Origin: Flavobacterium sp. HJ-32-4
GTDB lineage: Bacteria > Bacteroidota > Bacteroidia > Flavobacteriales > Flavobacteriaceae
Direction: 5' to 3'
NCBI RefSeq assembly: GCF_022532105.1
Contig: NZ_CP092832.1
Location: forward strand, 1,178,001 to 1,242,000
DNA length: 64,000 bases
Under the pieces are notes generated by a model. That model saw only the letters and a program-made list of their open reading frames with translations. It made no database searches and had not been told where the DNA came from. Positions within the stretch are counted from its first letter, which is position 1; the number at the start of each line of letters is the position of its first letter. Positions 713-52,864 of the stretch are shown here, in pieces. Position numbers and translations under genes: made by a program.

Positions 713-755
713 CGGTTTTTCCGTATCCGGCTCTTTACAAACTCACCTACATTTG
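713..755 (+). promoter_or_regulatory. putative operator plus promoter (copy 1 of a 3-copy arrangement)
   Basis: CGGTTTTTCCGTA at 713-725 is followed after exactly 22 bp by TACATTTG at 748-755, a perfect match to the Bacteroidota -7 consensus TAnnTTTG. The same motif, at the same 22-bp spacing, recurs at 17960 and 52708. The start codon at 774 is 18 bp beyond the box. The position of the motif relative to the box suggests an activator site close to the polymerase; this is inference. Confidence 0.6.
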
Positions 756-4737: not shown

Positions 4738-4742
4738 CCTCC

Positions 4743-4889
4743 TAGCCCGGATTGCAGCGAAAAGCCTTTTGAACGGAAGCGCGTACTTTTTCGCTTGTCG
4801 CGGCGGCGACCAACGGAAGCCGTTCGCGGAAGCTGAAAAAGCAGCGGTTTCGGAAAAAGCTTGTAGCGAAAAGCCGGAATAGCTTCCCC
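4743..4889. repeat. dispersed repeat family A, copy 1
   Basis: A 147-bp intergenic element that begins TAGCCCGGATTGCAGCGAAA and ends TAGCGAAAAGCCGGAATAGC. A second copy is at 31470-31611. Shared blocks include GGCGACCAACGGAAGCC in the middle and AAAGCTTGNAGCGAANAGCC near the end. The two ends resemble one another (AGCGAAAAGCC in both). It lies 4 bp from the rimM terminator. No ORF is conserved between the copies. Confidence 0.75.
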
Positions 4890-17925: not shown

Positions 17926-17959
17926 AAAAGAACGAGAGTTGATAATTTAACATTTTAGG

Positions 17960-18002
17960 CGGTTTTTCCGTATCCACGGCTCCCGCGCAGTTTTTACCTT
18001 TA
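17960..18002 (+). promoter_or_regulatory. putative operator plus promoter (copy 2)
   Basis: CGGTTTTTCCGTA at 17960-17972, then exactly 22 bp, then TACCTTTA at 17995-18002 (TAnnTTTG with a final A). The box runs straight into the palindrome at 18001-18035. The YjbR-family gene starts at 18100. Confidence 0.6.
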
Positions 18003-18035
18003 GACCTCAAAGGTTTTAAAAACCTTTGAGGTCTA
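18001..18035. repeat. perfect palindrome, 17-bp arms (family C)
   Basis: TAGACCTCAAAGGTTTT, a single A, then the exact reverse complement. A near-identical palindrome is at 52749-52783 in the same position relative to operator and box. The expected transcription start falls in the left arm, so either a DNA-binding site or an RNA hairpin at the extreme 5' end is possible. Confidence 0.85.
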
Positions 18036-18099
18036 AGCCGACCGCCAGCGCGACGAATCGGTCGCGTCAAAACCATTTTGTGAATGTCAGTAAGCCCTT

Positions 18100-23755: not shown

Positions 23756-23773
23756 CGAAAAAGGGAGAGATGG

Positions 23774-23842
23774 GGAATTAGCGAATGAGCCAATTAGCGG
23801 ATTAGCGAATGAGATAATTAGATGATTAGAAAATGAGATAAT
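23774..23842. repeat. dispersed repeat family D, copy 1
   Basis: AT-rich units of AATTAGCGAATGAG and GATTAGCGAATGAG in tandem, degenerating to AATTAGATGATTAGAAAATGAG. Related blocks flank the nadK-CBS gap at 50061 and 50241. Confidence 0.6.
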
Positions 23843-23883
23843 GCGTAGAAGGACGTGCTTCGATCCTCGTCAGATTCGGAAAT

Positions 23884-31455: not shown

Positions 31456-31469
31456 GGGGAGAAGGTATC

Positions 31470-31611
31470 TAGCCCGGATGGCAGCGGAAAGCCTTTGGGC
31501 CGGAAAACCCGATTTTGCCCGGTGGCGACGGCGACCAACGGAAGCCGGGAGGCCCGGATGCAAAAGCGGTTTTGCGGGACAAAGCTTGCAGCGAACAGCC
31601 GGATGGGCTTC
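31470..31611. repeat. dispersed repeat family A, copy 2
   Basis: A 142-bp element that starts TAGCCCGGATGGCAGCGGAAA and ends GCAGCGAACAGCCGGATGGGCTTC. Blocks shared with the 4743 copy include GGCGACCAACGGAAGCC, AAAGCTTG and AGCCGGA. As in copy 1, its right end adjoins a minus-strand terminator. Confidence 0.75.
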
Positions 31612-32696: not shown

Positions 32697-35600
32697 ATGA
32701 AAAGAATTTTACTAATCCTTGCCTTTTTTATCGGTTTCCATTCGTATTCTCAGGCCGATATACAGGTCACCTACTCTGATTTTACGGATTATTACGAACC
32801 GGGAGGCACCAATACGTATGTCCTTACGGTTCGGAATACGGGACCGTCCGTTGCAACAAATATCACGATAACGGGCGGGATTCCGGCCGGCATCGATGAA
32901 TATTCCTGGACGGGTCCAAATGGTACTTTCGATGCGGATGACGCGTTGAACCAAACTATTGCTACGCTTGCCTCGGGTGGAACCGTCACGTATCTCATCA
33001 CGATGAAGGCCAGTGTGTCCTTCCTGGGTAACATTATCAGTACTGTTTCGGCTTCCAGCGCCGTATCCGATCCCAATCCGTCCAACAACACAGCTACGGA
33101 TACTGATAGTCGATATGTGGGGGCCGATCTGGTGGTAACCAATACCAATGGGCAATCTTTTTACACGCCTGGAACTACGGTCAATTACACGGTTACGATT
33201 CTGAATGCAGGTCCTTACACCACGACCAACGTGCAGGTGGTGTATCCGATACCGGCGAATGTGCAGAATTTCACATGGACTGGGCCCAACGGTTCGGGCG
33301 GGAGTAACTCGGGTATCAACACCGTGGTGCCGGGTCAACTCAATGAAGGCGCTTCTTATGTGTTTAACGTGAGTTTTACGATCCCCCCCGACTTTACCGG
33401 CCCGTTGGTTACGCAGGCGTCGGCCTCGAGCTACTACGTAGACCCGGTGCCCACCTGCAGCGGCTGTATCGATACCGATTTGCGGGGAACGAACCTAACA
33501 TACAGTGTAACGGACAATAAGACAAACTTTACGCCCGGAGATACAAATACGTATGTCGTGACGGTGTCGAACCAAGGCGATTTTCAGGCAGATAACGTCG
33601 TTGTGTCGTTACCCCTTCCTCTTGGGGTGACGTCTATGACCTGGACCGGAACGGACGGGTCAAGCGGCTCAGGTGCCCTGTCGGCTACCCTTGCTACGCT
33701 GGCGCCCGGCGCGACTGTTACGTACACCCTTACAGCTATTACAGCCAATGATTTCTATGCCAATATAATAGCGCAACTGAATGTGACCAGCACGACGCCG
33801 GATACCACTCCGGGATGTACGTCATGTACGGATACAGATAGCGTGATTATCTCGTCGCAGGCAAATATAGCCGTGACGAACACCGATAACCAAAACGCGT
33901 ACTTTCCCGGTCAACCCTTAACGTACACGGTAACGGTTACCAACAATGGTCCGAACCCTGCGACCGACGTTCGTGTCATCAATGCCGTTCCGGCGGGTAT
34001 CACCTCTTTTAACTGGACGGGTTCAAATGGCACAAGCGGGACGGGAACGCTGAACGACCTCATTGCTTCGTTAGCTGTTAACCAAAGCGTTACCTACACG
34101 ATAACCGTGCAGGTGCCCGCAGGCTTTACCGGCTCGCTTTCGAGCACCGCTACTGCGAACGCCCATGAATTCGATCCTGCACCCGCCAACAATAAGGCAA
34201 CCGATACGGATGCGCAGGTCACTGTCGGGGCTGATATTATCGTTACCAATACCAACGGCCAAACGACGTATACGCCCGGGCAAACGGGAGTGACCTATAC
34301 AATTACGGTTACTAACAAAGGGCCTCAGAACGCATCTAACGTTTTGGTAACTAATCCTATTCCGGCTGGCGTTACGAACTTTAGCTGGAGCGGCAATTCC
34401 CAAAATGGCACCAACACCGCCCTCAGCAGCATTATCGTGACTTTGAATGCCGGCACGAGTGTCACGTTCACGGTCACTTTTGATGTGCCTCTCGCTTTTA
34501 CCGGAAACCTTACGAGCACGGCAAACGTGTCGAGTCCGACCGGGGATCCGAACCCGGCCAATAACCAAAATATTGCAGACACAGATACACAGGCGGGTGC
34601 CGGCACTACTGCCGATGTGGCGCTCACAATAGCCGATAACCAAACCACGTATACGGCACCTGGTACGCGTGTTTATACCGTAACGGTCTCCAACGCGGGG
34701 CCAATCGCGGCGACAGGCGTACAGGTGAATGTGCCGATTCCAGCCGGTATCACGTCGTTTTCATGGACCGGCAATAGCCAAAGTGGAACGAATACGGCGC
34801 TCAGCAACACTATTGCCACTTTAGCACCAGGTGCCTCTGTAATCTACACCGTGACCGTGCAGGTGCCTTCCGGTTTCACGGGCGATCTTGTGGTGGCTGG
34901 TACGATTACACCGGTTACAACCGATTCGAATACGGCTAACAATGCGGCAGCTGATAAGGATGTTCCGGACGGAGGTGCTGACATCGTCGTAGTGAACAGC
35001 GACAACACGGCGAATTTTATAGCGGGCCAAACCCGTACGTATACTGTTACCGTCACGAATTACGGTCCGCAGACAGCGACGAATGTTTCCGTTCAGGGTA
35101 ACGTGCCCGTTGGGATTTCTCCTTCCCAGGTATCCTGGAGTGGACCCACGGCTTCTGGTTCGGGTGCGTTGACGACTACGATACCTTCACTTGGTGTGGG
35201 CGAAACCGTCACGTATACGGTAGCAGTTGCGGTTCCGAGTAACTATACGGGCGCGACGTTGATCCATGATATTTCTGTTTTGGCCGACCAGCCAGACCCT
35301 AACCCGGGTTGTGCACAGTGTTCGGATTCAGATACAGCTACGCCGTTTGCCGATTTGCAAACAGTAAAAACCGATAATCAATCGCAGTATCTTTTCAATT
35401 CGACTGTCGTTTACACGATTACCCTTTACAATGCAGGCCCGAGTGATGCTACGAATGTGGTGATGACGGATCTGGTGCCAGCTGGTATTACAAATGCCGC
35501 AAATATGACCTGGATTTCCTCAACGGGCGTGACGGGAACAGGTAATATGACGCTAACGATACCGACATTGGCAGTGGGGGCTTCCGTTTTTGTTAAAGTT

Positions 35601-38600
35601 TCTGTTCAAATCCCGCTCAACTGGTCTACCCAAACACCATCACCGAACCTTACCAATACCGTGACGGTGACGAGTTCGACTCCGGACCCGAATCCGGGTT
35701 GTACTACTTGTACGGACATAGACACACCCCGTTCGAAGTTTGTGACTGTTGATACGACCAGACCAACATATGACCTTGTTCGAGACGTATTGATCGCTTC
35801 GCCCTGCGCGAATTTTTCCAATGTAGTCACATCTACCAATACGCTTGCCTCTAACATTGGGTGGGGCTACTTTAATCGGAACAACTCGGACTTCCCTTTG
35901 AAAGATGGTGTGGTGATCCGGTCGGGACAGGCAGTGCAGGCTGCTGGGCCTATAAATGGGACGGTGAGTACCACCGCTACGGGTCAAGGTGACCCTGACG
36001 TCGACTGGATTATCGGGGATATGGGCCTGTCGGGTGTTTCGGCTGACCACTCCTACATCCAGTTTAAGTTCATTCCGTACACTAATGAGTTCAGCTTTAA
36101 TTTCGTATTCGCGTCTAATGAATATGGGTTCTGGCAGTGCCAGTATTTTGACGTTTTCGGATTTGTACTGACCAACCTGAACACGGGGGAGAAGAAAAAC
36201 CTCGCGGTAGTGCCGGTCGCGGGTAATCCACCCATTTCCGTTAATACGATACGTGATGCGGCCTACAACGTAGCTCCGAGTAATTGTGCTAGTGCAAACC
36301 CGCAATTTTTCGGCGAATATTACGAAGCAGATCAGCCCAATGCCGATATTAATTTCCGCGGGCGCACCGTTAAGATGACCGCGTTTTCGGAGGTTACGCC
36401 TGGAGACCCTTACACCATCAAACTGGTCGTTTCGGATTATAATGACCAGGCTTTCGATATCGGGGTTTTCATTGAAGGAGGTAGTTTCAATATCGGTAAT
36501 CCGGATTTTCGCTTCACCGACCCTATCACCGGTATCGAAGATTCGCTTACAGCCGGCGGCGCCACTATTTGTGGTGGAAGCGGCCTGCAGTTTACACTTA
36601 AGGCGGGGACTGCGCCTATTCCCGGAGCCACCTATGCGTGGACCCGCGTCGTCGACGGGGTAGTAGAGAATCTTCCCGATACGACATATGATATACAATA
36701 TGCGGAACCGGGGGAGTACTATGTCACGATCACCTTCGGGACCTCATCCTGCTCGCAAACCTATCGTGCCGAGATCAAAGACTTTACCGATCCGACCATT
36801 CCTCCAACGAATGCGCCAAACGATATCTTACTCTGTCAGGCTGCCGCACCGTATATTTTCAATATTGACCAGGACACGCTTATTGCAAATGGTGCGACAC
36901 CGGGGACCTACGACATCCATTATTATGTGGGTCAAACCGACGCGCAGTTTGCAGCGCCTAATTATATCACAAACATTACGACATACGAACCTCCTACGTT
37001 GCCTTATACCATCTGGGCTTCTGCTTACAACAACGTGACGGGTTGTATCGACGTGTATCCGGTTGTGTTGGATGCGGAAATTCCGGGAGGTACCTTCTCG
37101 TATCCGGGAGGGCCGTTCAACTTCTATAACACTACTACTATCACGCCAACACTTGCCGGCCTTACGCCGGGGGGGACTTTTTCTGCCAGCCCCGCGACAC
37201 TCGACATCGACCCGGTGACAGGTGTTATTACGCCTGCAACTAGTACTTATGAACCGAGTTATACCATTACATACGAGATTGTGGCGTCACCTACTGCCTG
37301 TCCGTATGTAACGACGACGACCATCGAGTTTGACCTGACCTGTGCTACCACTGCGACATCAAGTGCTCCGGCGGTCTGTGTGGGTGGTTCCGTTGATTTG
37401 TTTGCCTCAGGGACGGAGCCTGACACAACCTACGCATGGACGGGCCCAAGCTTTACGTCGGCTGTACAGAATCCAACAGGTGTGGCCTTACCACTTACGC
37501 CGGGTGATTACACGTATACCGTGGTCAAAACGCGAAACGGACTCGACTGTGCAACTGCCAGCGTGACGGTTTCCGTCTACGAAATCCCGACGGCTGCTTT
37601 TGCCGTTTCGACCTTCCCGGCCTGTTTGGGTGATACTCCTAGTGTATCGGTAATGGGCACGCCAAATGCGGTGGTTACGGTGTATGAACAAGGCACCACG
37701 ACGCCTATTTCGGTCACGCTCGACGCCACGGGTGTTGGGTCATTCACGACCCTTGCAGTGCCTTCGACAGGCATGGTATACGAACTGACACGTGCTGAAT
37801 CGACTACGACGCCGGTCTGCGCCACGGATTATACCCCTGGCACGGTGACGGTCACCATCACGACAACGCCTCCGACAGCGACGGTAGCGGCGCCGCCGAC
37901 GGCTGTCTGCTCAGGTGATACGGCTACTTTTACCGTTACGGGCACACCGAATGGTGTTGTAAATTATACGCTGGGTGCCGCGGGAGGTTCCGTGACCCTC
38001 GACGGAGCAGGTACGGCCCCGGTTACGACCGGTCCAATTACGGCTGGGGTAACTATAACGCTTAACAGCATCGTGTCGGGTAGCTGCACCACGCCGCTCT
38101 CTGCCACGGCTTCTGCTTCGGTATTGCCATTGCCAACGGCGAGCTTTACGGCTACTACGACCATCTGTGCGCAGCAAGCGGCGGTGATCGACTTCACCGG
38201 CACGCCGAACGCGCAGGTGACTTTCACCGATAGCAACGGCACCTCCAATACGATTACCCTAACAGCAGGCGGTACGTATCAGTATACCTCACCGTATCCG
38301 ATGACGGCCAACGGCACCTTCACCCTGAACAGTGTGGTGAGTGCCACCACACCGGCCTGTACGCAAACCCTGAACCAACAGTTGAACTTCACGGTCAATG
38401 CCCTTCCAGCCGTTACACAGGATCCGGCCCCGGCCACACAGGCAGCCTGCGAAGGCAGCACGGTGACCTTTACCGCTGCGGGAACAGGAGCGGGAGTGGG
38501 GTATCAGTGGTACGGTCCATCCGGACTGATCACCGGCGCCAATAACGCGACGCTGACCCTGACCAACATCACCCTGGCCCAGGAAGGCAATTACTACGTT

Positions 38601-40754
38601 GAGGTAAGCGGTACCTGCGCGCCTTCACCGCTTTCGGCCAATGCCTTTTTGGATGTGACCGATGCTCCGGCCATCACGAGCCTTGCAGCCAATACGGTGC
38701 TGTGTGAAGGATCGAACTATAGCATCACGGTAAACGCCACCGGAGATAACCTATCGTATGAATGGCGCAATGCTGCCAACCTGGTGGTGGGCAACACCGC
38801 GACACTGACCATCGCTTCGATCACCCCGGCCAATGCGGGTACCTATACCGTTACGGTGAGTGGAGCCGCAGGCTGTACGCCGGTATCGCAATCGACGACC
38901 CTTACCATCAATGCCCTTCCGCAGATCACCACCCAACCGGTGGGCGCGACCATCTGCGAAGACGAAGGCTATACCTTTACCGTAGCGGCTACTGAGTCGC
39001 TGTTGAACTTCAACTGGTACCACGGCAGTCCTGCGGCACTTGTCAAGAGCGGTCCGGATAACTTCCTTACCGTTGCCGGTACGATGGCCGATGAAGGCAC
39101 GTATTATGTAGAAGTCACCAACCCGTGTTTACCAAGTCCGGGTGTTACCAGTACAACCGTTACGCTGAACATCGAGCAGAAGCCACGCATTACGGTGCAA
39201 CCGTTATCCCCTGCGCCGATGTGTACGGGCGAGAACTTTACCCTGTCGGTCACCGCCACAGGCGAGAACCTTGGCTACCAGTGGTATGGTCCGGATGGCA
39301 ACCCGATTGCGGGGGCTACCTCGACCAGCTACAGTGTGACCGGCGCCCAGGTGAACCAATCGGGGAACTACTTCGTTCGGGTGAGCAACACCCTGGGTGA
39401 ATGTAGCCCGGTTGATTCGACACCGGCCACTATCACCGTGAACCAGGGCCCTGCCTGGACAGTAGAGCCAGGTGATCTGAACCTGTGTGTTGGAGAGGCT
39501 ATCCTGCTTAGCTCACAGGCTTCAGGCGATGCCCTGACCTATAGCTGGTATAAAGACGGAGTGGACCTGAACGTCCACACCCCTGATCTTACCATAGCCG
39601 CCGCCGATGTGGATGTGACCGATGCGGGTATTTACCGCGTGGAGGTCACCAGCCCGACGTGCCCACTGATTTTCTCAGAGGCCATTGTTCTGGTTTACCC
39701 AGCTCCGCAGGCAACGATAGCTAATGGCAACGAGCCTGAAATCTGTGAAGGACAAAGTGCTGATGTGGTCTTTAGCGGCACCCCGAATGCGGTGGTGACC
39801 TATACGATCAACGGGGGAGCACCTCAGACCATTGTATTGAGTCCGGGCGGGCAGGCCATCCTGGCTACGGGCCAACTGGATGCCACGACTGAGTACACGC
39901 TGGTGAGTGTGATTACGGGCAGTGAGCCGTATTGTTCGGCTCCACTAGCCGGACTTCCGAACACCACGGCTATTGTGAAGGTTGACCGGATCCCGGATGT
40001 GGACCTTCCACAGGATACCTACCTCTGTTTTGACGCGGCGGGTAATCTGTTGGGTGTACACGATGCGTTTGAAACAGGGCTTGACCCGGCTATTTATAGC
40101 TTCCAGTGGTATTTTGAAGGCAATCCGATTGCAGGGGCTACCGGATCGGGTTACACGCCCGACAGTGCGGGCCAGTATCGTGTGGAAATAACCAATAATA
40201 CGACGAATTGTACTTCGGCTGCTACGGCTCCGGTTGTGTCCTCGACGGCTCCGACTTCGATCACGGCGGCGGATGTGACTACGGGTTACTTCGCCGATAC
40301 GGCTTCGATTGTGGTGACGGTTGACCCTGTAGGGGACTACGAATACCGCCTGGATGACGGTCCGTGGCAGACAAGCAATACCTTCACGGGTGTCAGCAAC
40401 GTATTGGGCTATGCCCAAACGGGCAGTCATACGGTATATGCCCGCGACCTGAAGTCTTGTGGACAGGTAGAGTATGCGGTGTATCTGGTAGATTATCCGA
40501 AGTATTTCACCCCGAATGGCGACGGCATCCACGATACGTGGAATATTCCGGTGCTTAGTGGTCAACCTAATGCAAAAATTTATATATTTGACCGTTCCGG
40601 AAAATTCCTGAAGCAATTGTACCCTACCGGCACGGGTTGGGATGGTACATTCAACGGTAACCCCATGCCTGCCGACGATTATTGGTTCGTGGTAAAATAT
40701 GAGGAAACCGGGCTCAATAAGGAGTTCCGTGCGCATTTTACATTAAAACGTTAA
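32697..40754 (+). CDS. giant SprB-like surface adhesin, T9SS type B sorting domain
   Basis: A 2685-residue secreted protein, signal peptide 1-19 (ending YSQ). Residues ~20-1015 hold eight tandem DUF11-type beta-sandwich repeats of ~120 residues, each starting ADIxVTxxxxQxxYxPG and ending in DPNPxNNxATDTD. Residues ~1035-1265 are a choice-of-anchor-L-type domain (NTLASNIGWGYFNRN; FVFASNEYGFW; GVFIEGG). Residues ~1270-2590 are Ig-like and PKD-like repeats, including a recurring GTPNAxVTxT module and GxYxVEVSG-type Ig strands. The end (YFTPNGDGIHDTWNIP onward, ~2602-2685) is the CHU_C/type B sorting domain. Architecture, size and the adjacent SprF-like gene fit a cell-surface adhesin like SprB of gliding flavobacteria. 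Which ligand it binds is unknown. Confidence 0.93.
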   Translation: MKRILLILAFFIGFHSYSQADIQVTYSDFTDYYEPGGTNTYVLTVRNTGPSVATNITITGGIPAGIDEYSWTGPNGTFDADDALNQTIATLASGGTVTYLITMKASVSFLGNIISTVSASSAVSDPNPSNNTATDTDSRYVGADLVVTNTNGQSFYTPGTTVNYTVTILNAGPYTTTNVQVVYPIPANVQNFTWTGPNGSGGSNSGINTVVPGQLNEGASYVFNVSFTIPPDFTGPLVTQASASSYYVDPVPTCSGCIDTDLRGTNLTYSVTDNKTNFTPGDTNTYVVTVSNQGDFQADNVVVSLPLPLGVTSMTWTGTDGSSGSGALSATLATLAPGATVTYTLTAITANDFYANIIAQLNVTSTTPDTTPGCTSCTDTDSVIISSQANIAVTNTDNQNAYFPGQPLTYTVTVTNNGPNPATDVRVINAVPAGITSFNWTGSNGTSGTGTLNDLIASLAVNQSVTYTITVQVPAGFTGSLSSTATANAHEFDPAPANNKATDTDAQVTVGADIIVTNTNGQTTYTPGQTGVTYTITVTNKGPQNASNVLVTNPIPAGVTNFSWSGNSQNGTNTALSSIIVTLNAGTSVTFTVTFDVPLAFTGNLTSTANVSSPTGDPNPANNQNIADTDTQAGAGTTADVALTIADNQTTYTAPGTRVYTVTVSNAGPIAATGVQVNVPIPAGITSFSWTGNSQSGTNTALSNTIATLAPGASVIYTVTVQVPSGFTGDLVVAGTITPVTTDSNTANNAAADKDVPDGGADIVVVNSDNTANFIAGQTRTYTVTVTNYGPQTATNVSVQGNVPVGISPSQVSWSGPTASGSGALTTTIPSLGVGETVTYTVAVAVPSNYTGATLIHDISVLADQPDPNPGCAQCSDSDTATPFADLQTVKTDNQSQYLFNSTVVYTITLYNAGPSDATNVVMTDLVPAGITNAANMTWISSTGVTGTGNMTLTIPTLAVGASVFVKVSVQIPLNWSTQTPSPNLTNTVTVTSSTPDPNPGCTTCTDIDTPRSKFVTVDTTRPTYDLVRDVLIASPCANFSNVVTSTNTLASNIGWGYFNRNNSDFPLKDGVVIRSGQAVQAAGPINGTVSTTATGQGDPDVDWIIGDMGLSGVSADHSYIQFKFIPYTNEFSFNFVFASNEYGFWQCQYFDVFGFVLTNLNTGEKKNLAVVPVAGNPPISVNTIRDAAYNVAPSNCASANPQFFGEYYEADQPNADINFRGRTVKMTAFSEVTPGDPYTIKLVVSDYNDQAFDIGVFIEGGSFNIGNPDFRFTDPITGIEDSLTAGGATICGGSGLQFTLKAGTAPIPGATYAWTRVVDGVVENLPDTTYDIQYAEPGEYYVTITFGTSSCSQTYRAEIKDFTDPTIPPTNAPNDILLCQAAAPYIFNIDQDTLIANGATPGTYDIHYYVGQTDAQFAAPNYITNITTYEPPTLPYTIWASAYNNVTGCIDVYPVVLDAEIPGGTFSYPGGPFNFYNTTTITPTLAGLTPGGTFSASPATLDIDPVTGVITPATSTYEPSYTITYEIVASPTACPYVTTTTIEFDLTCATTATSSAPAVCVGGSVDLFASGTEPDTTYAWTGPSFTSAVQNPTGVALPLTPGDYTYTVVKTRNGLDCATASVTVSVYEIPTAAFAVSTFPACLGDTPSVSVMGTPNAVVTVYEQGTTTPISVTLDATGVGSFTTLAVPSTGMVYELTRAESTTTPVCATDYTPGTVTVTITTTPPTATVAAPPTAVCSGDTATFTVTGTPNGVVNYTLGAAGGSVTLDGAGTAPVTTGPITAGVTITLNSIVSGSCTTPLSATASASVLPLPTASFTATTTICAQQAAVIDFTGTPNAQVTFTDSNGTSNTITLTAGGTYQYTSPYPMTANGTFTLNSVVSATTPACTQTLNQQLNFTVNALPAVTQDPAPATQAACEGSTVTFTAAGTGAGVGYQWYGPSGLITGANNATLTLTNITLAQEGNYYVEVSGTCAPSPLSANAFLDVTDAPAITSLAANTVLCEGSNYSITVNATGDNLSYEWRNAANLVVGNTATLTIASITPANAGTYTVTVSGAAGCTPVSQSTTLTINALPQITTQPVGATICEDEGYTFTVAATESLLNFNWYHGSPAALVKSGPDNFLTVAGTMADEGTYYVEVTNPCLPSPGVTSTTVTLNIEQKPRITVQPLSPAPMCTGENFTLSVTATGENLGYQWYGPDGNPIAGATSTSYSVTGAQVNQSGNYFVRVSNTLGECSPVDSTPATITVNQGPAWTVEPGDLNLCVGEAILLSSQASGDALTYSWYKDGVDLNVHTPDLTIAAADVDVTDAGIYRVEVTSPTCPLIFSEAIVLVYPAPQATIANGNEPEICEGQSADVVFSGTPNAVVTYTINGGAPQTIVLSPGGQAILATGQLDATTEYTLVSVITGSEPYCSAPLAGLPNTTAIVKVDRIPDVDLPQDTYLCFDAAGNLLGVHDAFETGLDPAIYSFQWYFEGNPIAGATGSGYTPDSAGQYRVEITNNTTNCTSAATAPVVSSTAPTSITAADVTTGYFADTASIVVTVDPVGDYEYRLDDGPWQTSNTFTGVSNVLGYAQTGSHTVYARDLKSCGQVEYAVYLVDYPKYFTPNGDGIHDTWNIPVLSGQPNAKIYIFDRSGKFLKQLYPTGTGWDGTFNGNPMPADDYWFVVKYEETGLNKEFRAHFTLKR

Positions 40755-50060: not shown

Positions 50061-50112
50061 GTAATTAGCGGATTAGCGAATGGGGAAATTAGCGAATGGA
50101 AGCACGTCCGGA
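50061..50112. repeat. dispersed repeat family D, copy 2
   Basis: AATTAGCGGATTAGCGAATG and AAATTAGCGAATGG between nadK and the CBS gene. It is inverted with respect to the copy at 50241, so the two could pair around a ~130-base loop. Confidence 0.6.
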
Positions 50113-50240
50113 TAGACCCTGTCCGCGTTTTGGAAAATCACCCCATGTCGCATTTGTGACGAATGACGCGCGTTGTGGCTGGATAGAGCGGCTGCGGTTT
50201 TTTTGAGAGGATGGATGCCCTTCCTACTGCGCTCCCCTCC

Positions 50241-50280
50241 ATCATTCGCTAATTCGCTCATCATCTCATTCGCTAATTAA
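50241..50280. repeat. dispersed repeat family D, copy 3 (inverted)
   Basis: ATTCGCTAATTCGCTCATC and CATTCGCTAATTAA, the reverse complement of copy 2. It covers the CBS gene's stop codon. Confidence 0.6.
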
Positions 50281-51751: not shown

Positions 51752-51874
51752 GGCGTTCCCCTCGGCGGAAGACCCTCCGAGCCGGAACTCCCCACCGCCT
51801 CGGGTCGGGCTATCCGCTGTAGCTTTGCTCCGCGAAGCGGGTCGCAAAGGCTGCCGCTCCTATCCCTAACGCGG
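51751..51874. repeat. dispersed repeat family B, copy 4
   Basis: GGGCGTTCCCCTCGG at the pdxJ stop, then CGGGTCGGGCTATCCGCTGTAG, GAAGCGGGTCGCAAAGG, and CGCTCCTATCCCTAACGCGG. It shows the family layout most clearly alongside the copy at 58799. Confidence 0.65.
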
Positions 51875-51922
51875 CGGTTCACAGTAGGCGCAGCTACTCT
51901 TACTACTAAACAATCACACGCT

Positions 51923-52690: not shown

Positions 52691-52707
52691 ATATTTAACT
52701 TTTTTTA

Positions 52708-52750
52708 CGGTTTTCCCGTACCCCCGCTACCCCCGGAGGCGCTACCTTTA
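52708..52750 (+). promoter_or_regulatory. putative operator plus promoter (copy 3)
   Basis: CGGTTTTCCCGTA at 52708-52720 (one change from copies 1 and 2), then exactly 22 bp, then TACCTTTA at 52743-52750. In this copy the motif is preceded by TA, making TACGGTTTTCCCGTA, whose outer bases are an inverted repeat. The next gene starts at 52865. Confidence 0.6.
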
Positions 52751-52783
52751 GACCTCAAAGGTTTTCAAAACCTTTGAGGTCTA
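52749..52783. repeat. near-perfect palindrome, 17-bp arms (family C)
   Basis: The same arms as at 18001 (TAGACCTCAAAGGTTTT), with C as the central base. It directly follows the -7-like box, as in copy 2 of the operator. Confidence 0.85.
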
Positions 52784-52864
52784 AACCGCACGCCCACTCG
52801 AAAATTCGCCCGCAGCGGTTATGTCAAATTCGCTACATTAGCATCGAAATCAAGTTTTGTATCT

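Follow-up and report, generated by a model that had tools for sequence, protein, structure and literature searches.

Three genes within a 64,000-nucleotide stretch of the Flavobacterium sp. HJ-32-4 genome are each preceded by a 13-base motif (one base variant in the third) that stands at a fixed distance from a −7 promoter box. The sequence-only reading of this stretch (the window; positions 1178001–1242000 of the single-contig 3.53-Mb genome, 52% G+C in the window) had proposed that such spacing would be given by either an activator site or an alternative sigma factor element, and would define a small regulon. The question raised by the locus is which of these the motif represents and which genes it serves. 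The positions on which that proposal was built proved exact: CGGTTTTTCCGTA occupies 713–725 and 17960–17972 and CGGTTTTCCCGTA occupies 52708–52720, followed after 22 bp by TACATTTG (748–755), TACCTTTA (17995–18002) and TACCTTTA (52743–52750), so that the gap is identical at all three sites.

The three window sites

All features of the three sites lie on the plus strand, and the sites were recognized from the sequence together with a matrix scan. Site 1 has the palindromic core TGCGG-TTTTT-CCGTA at 711–725, and its distal TTAACA element is degenerate (GTTCAT, 700–705). If the box occupies −12 to −5, where excerpts of an F. psychrophilum transcriptome study place TAnnTTTG (PMC9723704), the predicted start of site 1 is close to 760. 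The gene served by site 1 (774–1130) encodes a four-helix-bundle protein (23S_rRNA_IVP, PF05635/TIGR02436; the NCBIfam scan that gave TIGR02436 was begun at an upstream TTG at 765). A 24-nt inverted repeat (96% complementary; 638–661 and 1165–1188) encloses site 1 and this gene, as if the gene and its promoter formed a small cassette.

Site 2 (TTAACA-N5-GGCGG-TTTTT-CCGTA, 17947–17972) and its box are followed by a hairpin of a dispersed repeat (TTTAGACCTCAAAGGTTTT-AAAAACCTTTGAGGTCTAA, 17999–18036) and then by a YjbR family gene (PF04237, 18100–18471). Site 3 (TTAACT-N5-TACGG-TTTTC-CCGTA, 52695–52720) is followed by a hairpin with 19-nt arms that are 100% complementary (52747–52785; folding of 52700–52790 gave a z of −7.0 as DNA) and by a gene for a Phage_holin_4_2 family membrane protein (PF04020, 52865–53215). 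Both hairpins were assigned as hairpin-type copies by repeat comparison, and Pfam agreed with the three gene families that had been named from the sequence. The TACCTTTA box of sites 2 and 3 runs into the hairpin, and the RNA of these two sites would begin inside it if transcription started some 12 nt past the TA.

The sites had been described as lying at three unrelated genes, with spacers that are not conserved and a distance that is. This description stands for site 1, whose spacer shares 5/22 and 4/22 bases with those of sites 2 and 3. It does not stand for sites 2 and 3, which agree at 11/22 spacer bases and are not independent, both being copies of a single repeat that bears a hairpin (77% identity across 121 bp).

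In the window alone the 13-mer with up to two mismatches is weakly enriched (10 matches against a shuffle mean of 5.2, with 5 of 100 shuffles reaching 10). A match of at least 8/10 to TACGG-N5-CCGTA followed by TAnnTTTR was found three times at spacing 22 and not at any other spacing from 15 to 30. When both strands of the window were scanned with a matrix built from 78 sites of other genomes, the three sites took ranks 1–3, with scores of 31.0, 21.9 and −0.7, and the next match scored −17.2. The value of −0.7, far under those of sites 2 and 3, belongs to site 1, which is without the TTAACA element.

Several other features of the window were recorded. Three matches to the Flavo-1 RNA family exceed the gathering score (4740–4884 and 31467–31609 on the plus strand, 51799–51883 on the minus strand); in the excerpted text of the F. 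psychrophilum study a clear role for Flavo-1 was likewise not found (PMC9723704). Tandem repeats of 8 bp, similar to AATTAGCG/AATGAGCG, lie at 23768–23845 and have direct and inverted counterparts at 50062–50279, and an open frame of 2685 aa that contains internal repeats spans 32697–40754 on the plus strand.

The site across the genome and the genus

Exact copies of the 13-mer number 64 across the 3.53 Mb (0 + 1 for the reversed pattern). A genome-wide search for the motif and its box had been proposed by the sequence-only reading and, run as RCGG-N5-CCGTA-N20..24-TAnnTTTR, it gave 22 matches in this genome and 0 in the controls. The spacing is exactly 22 bp in 19 of these matches, and 21, 23 and 24 bp in one each. 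A survey of 199 genus genomes detected the 13-mer in 76 (64 copies in this genome, 31 in the genome designated G155 and 0–6 in the remainder). Two patterns were too strict: TTAAC with the palindrome and a strict TAnnTTTG occurred at a single place in this genome, and the 13-mer with TAnnTTTG had matches in 4 of 60 genomes, those beyond our own being at other spacings.

On sequence grounds the 13-mer forms the core of a more extended site, TTAACA-N5-TRCGG-N5-CCGTA, a form that emerged from the flanks of copies in other genomes. This full site was the more useful probe, because the 13-mer alone looked like background outside two genomes. It is present in 38 of 398 Flavobacterium genus genomes (reversed control 0), with 48 copies in our own genome and 100 across the 37 others (1–7 each); G155 has the palindrome and lacks the full site. 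Two loci on contigs labelled Limnohabitans sp. MAG20 (L126 and L130) also bear the Flavobacterium-type site, which suggests that these contigs were wrongly binned.

The sites of the 37 other genomes were picked blind to any promoter box, and 96 of the 100 were counted (one was unfetched, two were outside the script range and one had an identical context). TAnnTT follows the site after 22 bp in 80 of the 96, after 21 bp in 4 and after 23 bp in 0, and it occurs at most 8 times at any other offset within the first ~60 bp. With the more complete boxes the same offset stands out: TAnnTTTR is found there in 60/96 sites (at most 2 at every other offset) and TAnnTTTG in 32/96. The shuffled null for a box at 22 bp had a mean of 1.8 and a maximum of 8 of 96, and when the box was sought in the opposite direction from the sites no offset rose above 3. 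The spacers fall into 65 clusters (mean pair identity 0.33), and 56 of these clusters have the box at 22 bp. The full site mostly precedes a TAnnTTT box by exactly 22 unconserved bp, and we consider it very likely that the pair is a genuine activator-promoter class whose geometry is fixed.

Candidate regulator and promoter geometry

The candidate activator is a NarL/FixJ-type response regulator (930245–930907, minus strand), recognized by its receiver domain and by its adjacency to a site. In 24 of the 37 other genomes a gene for an orthologue (37–57% identity, 180 or more aligned residues) is found no more than 51 bp from a site; the site follows the regulator stop in 13 of these, lies at a divergent start in 10 and is ahead of the gene in 1. 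In the other 13 of the 37, no orthologue was found closer than 150 bp to any of the sites read. A gene for an orthologue is present in 28 of 83 site loci (282 kb), and no orthologue was found in 30 comEC loci (114 kb) that had been fetched for another reason. When 30 loci were retrieved with the 13-mer as the sole criterion, one of them (L088) had an orthologue, and this locus itself bears sites.

In our own genome the regulator is part of a cluster at 929.6–937.1 kb that also has three HisKA_3 kinases, two of which have detectable TPR repeats, and a secreted Cys-containing protein. Sites lie at 930 kb (the regulator's end), 933 kb and 937 kb; the palindrome at 937 kb is shared by a kinase on one side, at spacing 21, and a divergent metallophosphatase gene on the other, at spacing 24, an arrangement also found in the genome G001. 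The regulator's receiver domain (PF00072) scored 38.7 bits against a cut-off of 30.2. The HTH is divergent: GerE was unreported for this protein and, of nine orthologues, some had it at scores under the cut-off, at best 22.2 bits against 23.5. The predicted structure (mean pLDDT 87.6, pTM 0.68) matches full-length LiaR, RcsB and VraR (TM 0.54–0.70). Based on these observations, the site is likely controlled by the NarL-type two-component regulator, which would be bound there. The regulator would be phosphorylated by the adjacent histidine kinases in a phosphorelay, and would control the operon to which it belongs as well as the secreted-protein gene next to it.

At the divergent arrangements (L133, L137, L138, L143, L149, L151, L158, L159, L209 and L219) the site is flanked on one side by the NarL-type regulator and on the other by the gene of a second regulator. 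The proteins of this second gene start like VQYSYLII; that of L159 was scanned and has a receiver and a LytTR domain, and the others were assigned by eye. Since the site is common to both genes in these 10 cases, the LytTR-type regulator is a rival activator there.

With the box at −12 to −5, the palindrome falls at about −49 to −35 (centre about −42) and TTAACA at about −60 to −55. LuxR and class II activators contact polymerase from about −42. An activator bound at TTAACA-N5-TRCGG-N5-CCGTA, 22 bp before a sigma-A type TAnnTTTG −7 box, would be centred at this position and could touch RNA polymerase. Flavobacterium sigma-A promoters, as described in excerpts of the F. psychrophilum study, share the TAnnTTTG box at −12 to −5 with the present sites, but the upstream activator site is not one of the motifs that these excerpts describe (PMC9723704).

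The same rigid spacing could be expected if an alternative (ECF-like) sigma factor recognized the motif as the upstream part of its promoter, particularly as the conserved element sits just upstream of the −33 region. However, the box is of the sigma-A TAnnTTTG type, a response-regulator gene adjoins the site in the 24 genomes noted above, and a 15-bp palindrome plus TTAACA, reaching from about −60 to −35, would be larger, and lie farther upstream, than sigma region 4 allows. A −33 element conserved at a fixed place in the spacer was not found among the 78 sites, because the columns past the first base (0.8 bits, A) carry 0.0–0.2 bits. The F. psychrophilum motifs SM4–SM6, in the excerpted text, are a −24/−12 sigma-54 element, TAnnTTGY and a CGT box (PMC9723704), which also argues against this alternative; TAnnTTGY-like boxes do occur at a few sites, e.g., L149 and L158. 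We regard an alternative sigma factor as highly improbable, and of the two explanations first offered for the motif the activator is favored, because of the sigma-A type box and the linkage of the site to a response-regulator gene.

A different objection is that the fixed spacing is a copying by-product of a dispersed repeat, of the hairpin or MITE type, with no regulatory role. A script's rule assigned 28 of the 64 13-mer copies as MITE-like, 8 as hairpin class and 28 as "single", a crude classing since some of the single copies are, judging from their flanks, further MITE arms. The MITE-like repeat is represented in our own genome by 25 distinct elements of 131–133 bp with terminal inverted repeats, and on each arm the site is present, pointing inward; TA occupies the 22-bp position in 49 of 50 arms; a clear target-site duplication was not evident by eye in the flanks. 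In the hairpin class the site is joined to TAGACCTCAAAGGTTTT-N-AAAACCTTTGAGGTCTA, a palindrome whose core has 11 copies in the genome; nine of ten hairpin copies whose flanks were read have the site by a script filter and the tenth has it with one mismatch. These proportions, together with the resemblance of sites 2 and 3, are what a by-product of copying would give, and copying of one repeat remains true for the origin of those two sites. Against it, the recA, comEC, ssb, recJ and rmuC sites and site 1 have no hairpin or MITE centre by eye, and the 37 other genomes keep the spacing with unrelated spacers and only 1–7 full sites each. As a general explanation, copying is ruled out by non-repeat sites elsewhere with equal spacing, and we consider it very unlikely that the spacing has no regulatory role. 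A repeat element with a complete operator-promoter suggests how a regulon under the proposed activator can grow.

Target genes and a probable competence switch

The genes that come first after a site in our own genome include those for ComEC, RecA, SSB, RecJ, RmuC, UPF0102/YraN, a PIF1-like helicase and Y1_Tnp, and UvrD is encoded by the second gene after a site. A RadC site, with the box TATCTTGC, was found outside the set of 22 matches. Further targets are two four-helix-bundle genes, ORF6N, YjbR, the holin-like protein, a phosphatase, kinases and secreted proteins. One of the 22 matches (1885204) is antisense into a gene. DNA-uptake and recombination genes account for 8 of the 21 sense targets (seven first genes, and UvrD second), with UPF0102 counted on the basis of nuclease-like similarity; the chance of this is ~4e-6 under an assumed 5% background.

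Five other genomes, chosen because they have comEC with the site, gave 24 matches and 0 in the controls. The G155 targets are YifB/ComM (scanned as a partial protein), ComEC, a ComF-like protein (under the NCBIfam cut-off, at 81 of 234 bits), RecJ, two Y1_Tnp, a TPR protein and a C25 peptidase. In G308 the targets are RmuC, comEC and a TPR protein, and comEC is also a target in G318 and G001. Three genes for Y1 (IS200-like) transposases have a site promoter, two in G155 (L300 and L313) and one, the single Y1_Tnp match, in our own genome (294620–295054, minus strand). A Y1_Tnp gene beside a copy of the site had prompted a REPIN/RAYT reading; this was rejected, as the copy is that gene's own promoter, and no MITE or hairpin copy was seen by eye beside our own genome's gene.

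We tested comEC in 30 genus genomes: our own (G000), G155, and 28 of the other 37 with the full site, the remaining nine of the 37 being omitted. The gene was found in all 30, although in G262 it is split over two frames. It has the site in 6 (G000, G001, G155, G308, G318 and, in degenerate form, G096), with the box 13–333 nt before the start; the site is absent before the other 24, so that comEC was rejected as a universal target. In other genomes the site also precedes genes for PurK, YfbU and LytTR-type regulators, judging from one scanned representative of each, and, by eye, for many small secreted proteins. The genes downstream of the site at L134, L153, L171, L178, L188 and L213 encode very short putative lipoproteins, mostly with proline-rich PKP-like ends (by eye), and it is possible that these are peptide signals.

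The site probably serves DNA uptake and recombination in this genome. Here and in a few relatives the regulon would have taken in comEC, comF, yifB/comM, ssb, recA, radC, recJ, rmuC and the Y1 transposases, and with uptake and recombination genes in the regulon the system is probably a competence switch in those lineages. DNA-uptake genes seem to have been recruited in particular lineages. Competence cannot be called a universal target, because 24 of the 30 comEC genes are without the site; the non-DNA targets, together with these comEC genes, indicate that the switch is broader than competence. Overall, we think it likely that an autoregulated two-component activator at about −42 controls DNA uptake and recombination in some lineages. 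The site, its spacing, its target genes and its closeness to the regulator gene are computed results, from which binding, activation, phosphorelay and a role in competence are deduced.

Two other functions were weighed against this. Recombination and repair genes such as recA, ssb, recJ, uvrD, radC and rmuC, all targets in our own genome, would also be expected of a DNA-damage (SOS-like) regulon. However, comEC, the comF-like gene and yifB are DNA-uptake/transformation genes, the site also serves secreted proteins and kinases, and its geometry fits an activator rather than a repressor, making an SOS-like regulon improbable. The system might instead respond primarily to a secreted peptide or to contact, through the small secreted proteins and kinases, with the DNA genes being incidental. 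The lack of the site before most comEC genes is consistent with this, as is the fact that, in the 13 of 24 genomes where the site follows the regulator stop, it precedes the next gene, often one for a small secreted protein (by eye). Such a response is nonetheless rather doubtful as the primary function, given the share of DNA genes among the sense targets of our own genome and the fact that G155 separately has the site at comEC, the comF-like gene, yifB and recJ.

The preferred reading, an activator of uptake and recombination genes in some lineages, can be extended tentatively. The kinases and the NarL-type regulator, encoded with small secreted proteins as a possible signal, may directly activate uptake, recombination and domesticated Y1 transposases, and MITE-like repeats may have spread the −42 operator and, by doing so, recruited new genes into the regulon, including those of the window. 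If this extension is true, RAYT-like transposases would act in handling incoming single-stranded DNA. The Y1 transposases under the shared promoter (one here, two in G155) are a lead on why bacteria keep them, and the operator, candidate activator and kinases make comEC regulation directly testable.

Several of these targets are known from the study of transformation. In Riemerella anatipestifer (Flavobacteriaceae), according to excerpts of PMC8459023, transformation requires ComEC, DprA, ComF and RecA and is reduced in YifB mutants; ComEC, ComF, RecA and YifB are of the same families as the present targets. For F. johnsoniae, excerpts of PMC7965970 list homologs of DprA, ComEC, RecA, ComM, Ssb and RadC and state that the species was not competent in the laboratory conditions of that study. 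The word "promoter" is absent from the main texts of both papers; "two-component" likewise occurs 0 times in the main text of PMC8459023, and its excerpts showed no operator. Competence, recA, comEC and LuxR had 0 matches in the F. psychrophilum main text (PMC9723704). A REP-associated tyrosine transposase and natural competence both appear in PMC3686654, seen in excerpt, among the best 10 of 2,078 matches. The exact string TACGGTTTTTCCGTA had 0 matches in the literature. Among the matches listed, titles and abstract starts named no comEC regulator in this group, and none of the three papers on peptide pheromones was on point.

The arrangement can be compared with three competence systems. In ComP-ComA of Bacillus subtilis a histidine kinase and a NarL-type regulator drive competence from an inverted-repeat operator. 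ComA works via ComS and ComK, whereas here the operator lies directly on uptake and recombination genes, and TPR repeats were detected in two of the three kinases. The CRP-S/Sxy regulon includes comEC/rec2, ssb, radC and comM, and for QstR of Vibrio cholerae neither a link to a TPR kinase nor the 22-bp TAnnTTTG geometry is known to us. QstR is, like the candidate here, a LuxR-type regulator, and one of competence according to excerpts of PMC6237807. The CRP-S/Sxy (TfoX) system of the Pasteurellaceae differs from ours in regulator family, operator sequence and phylum, but there, as proposed here, a single operator co-controls uptake and ssDNA-processing genes (PMC5809987, in excerpt).
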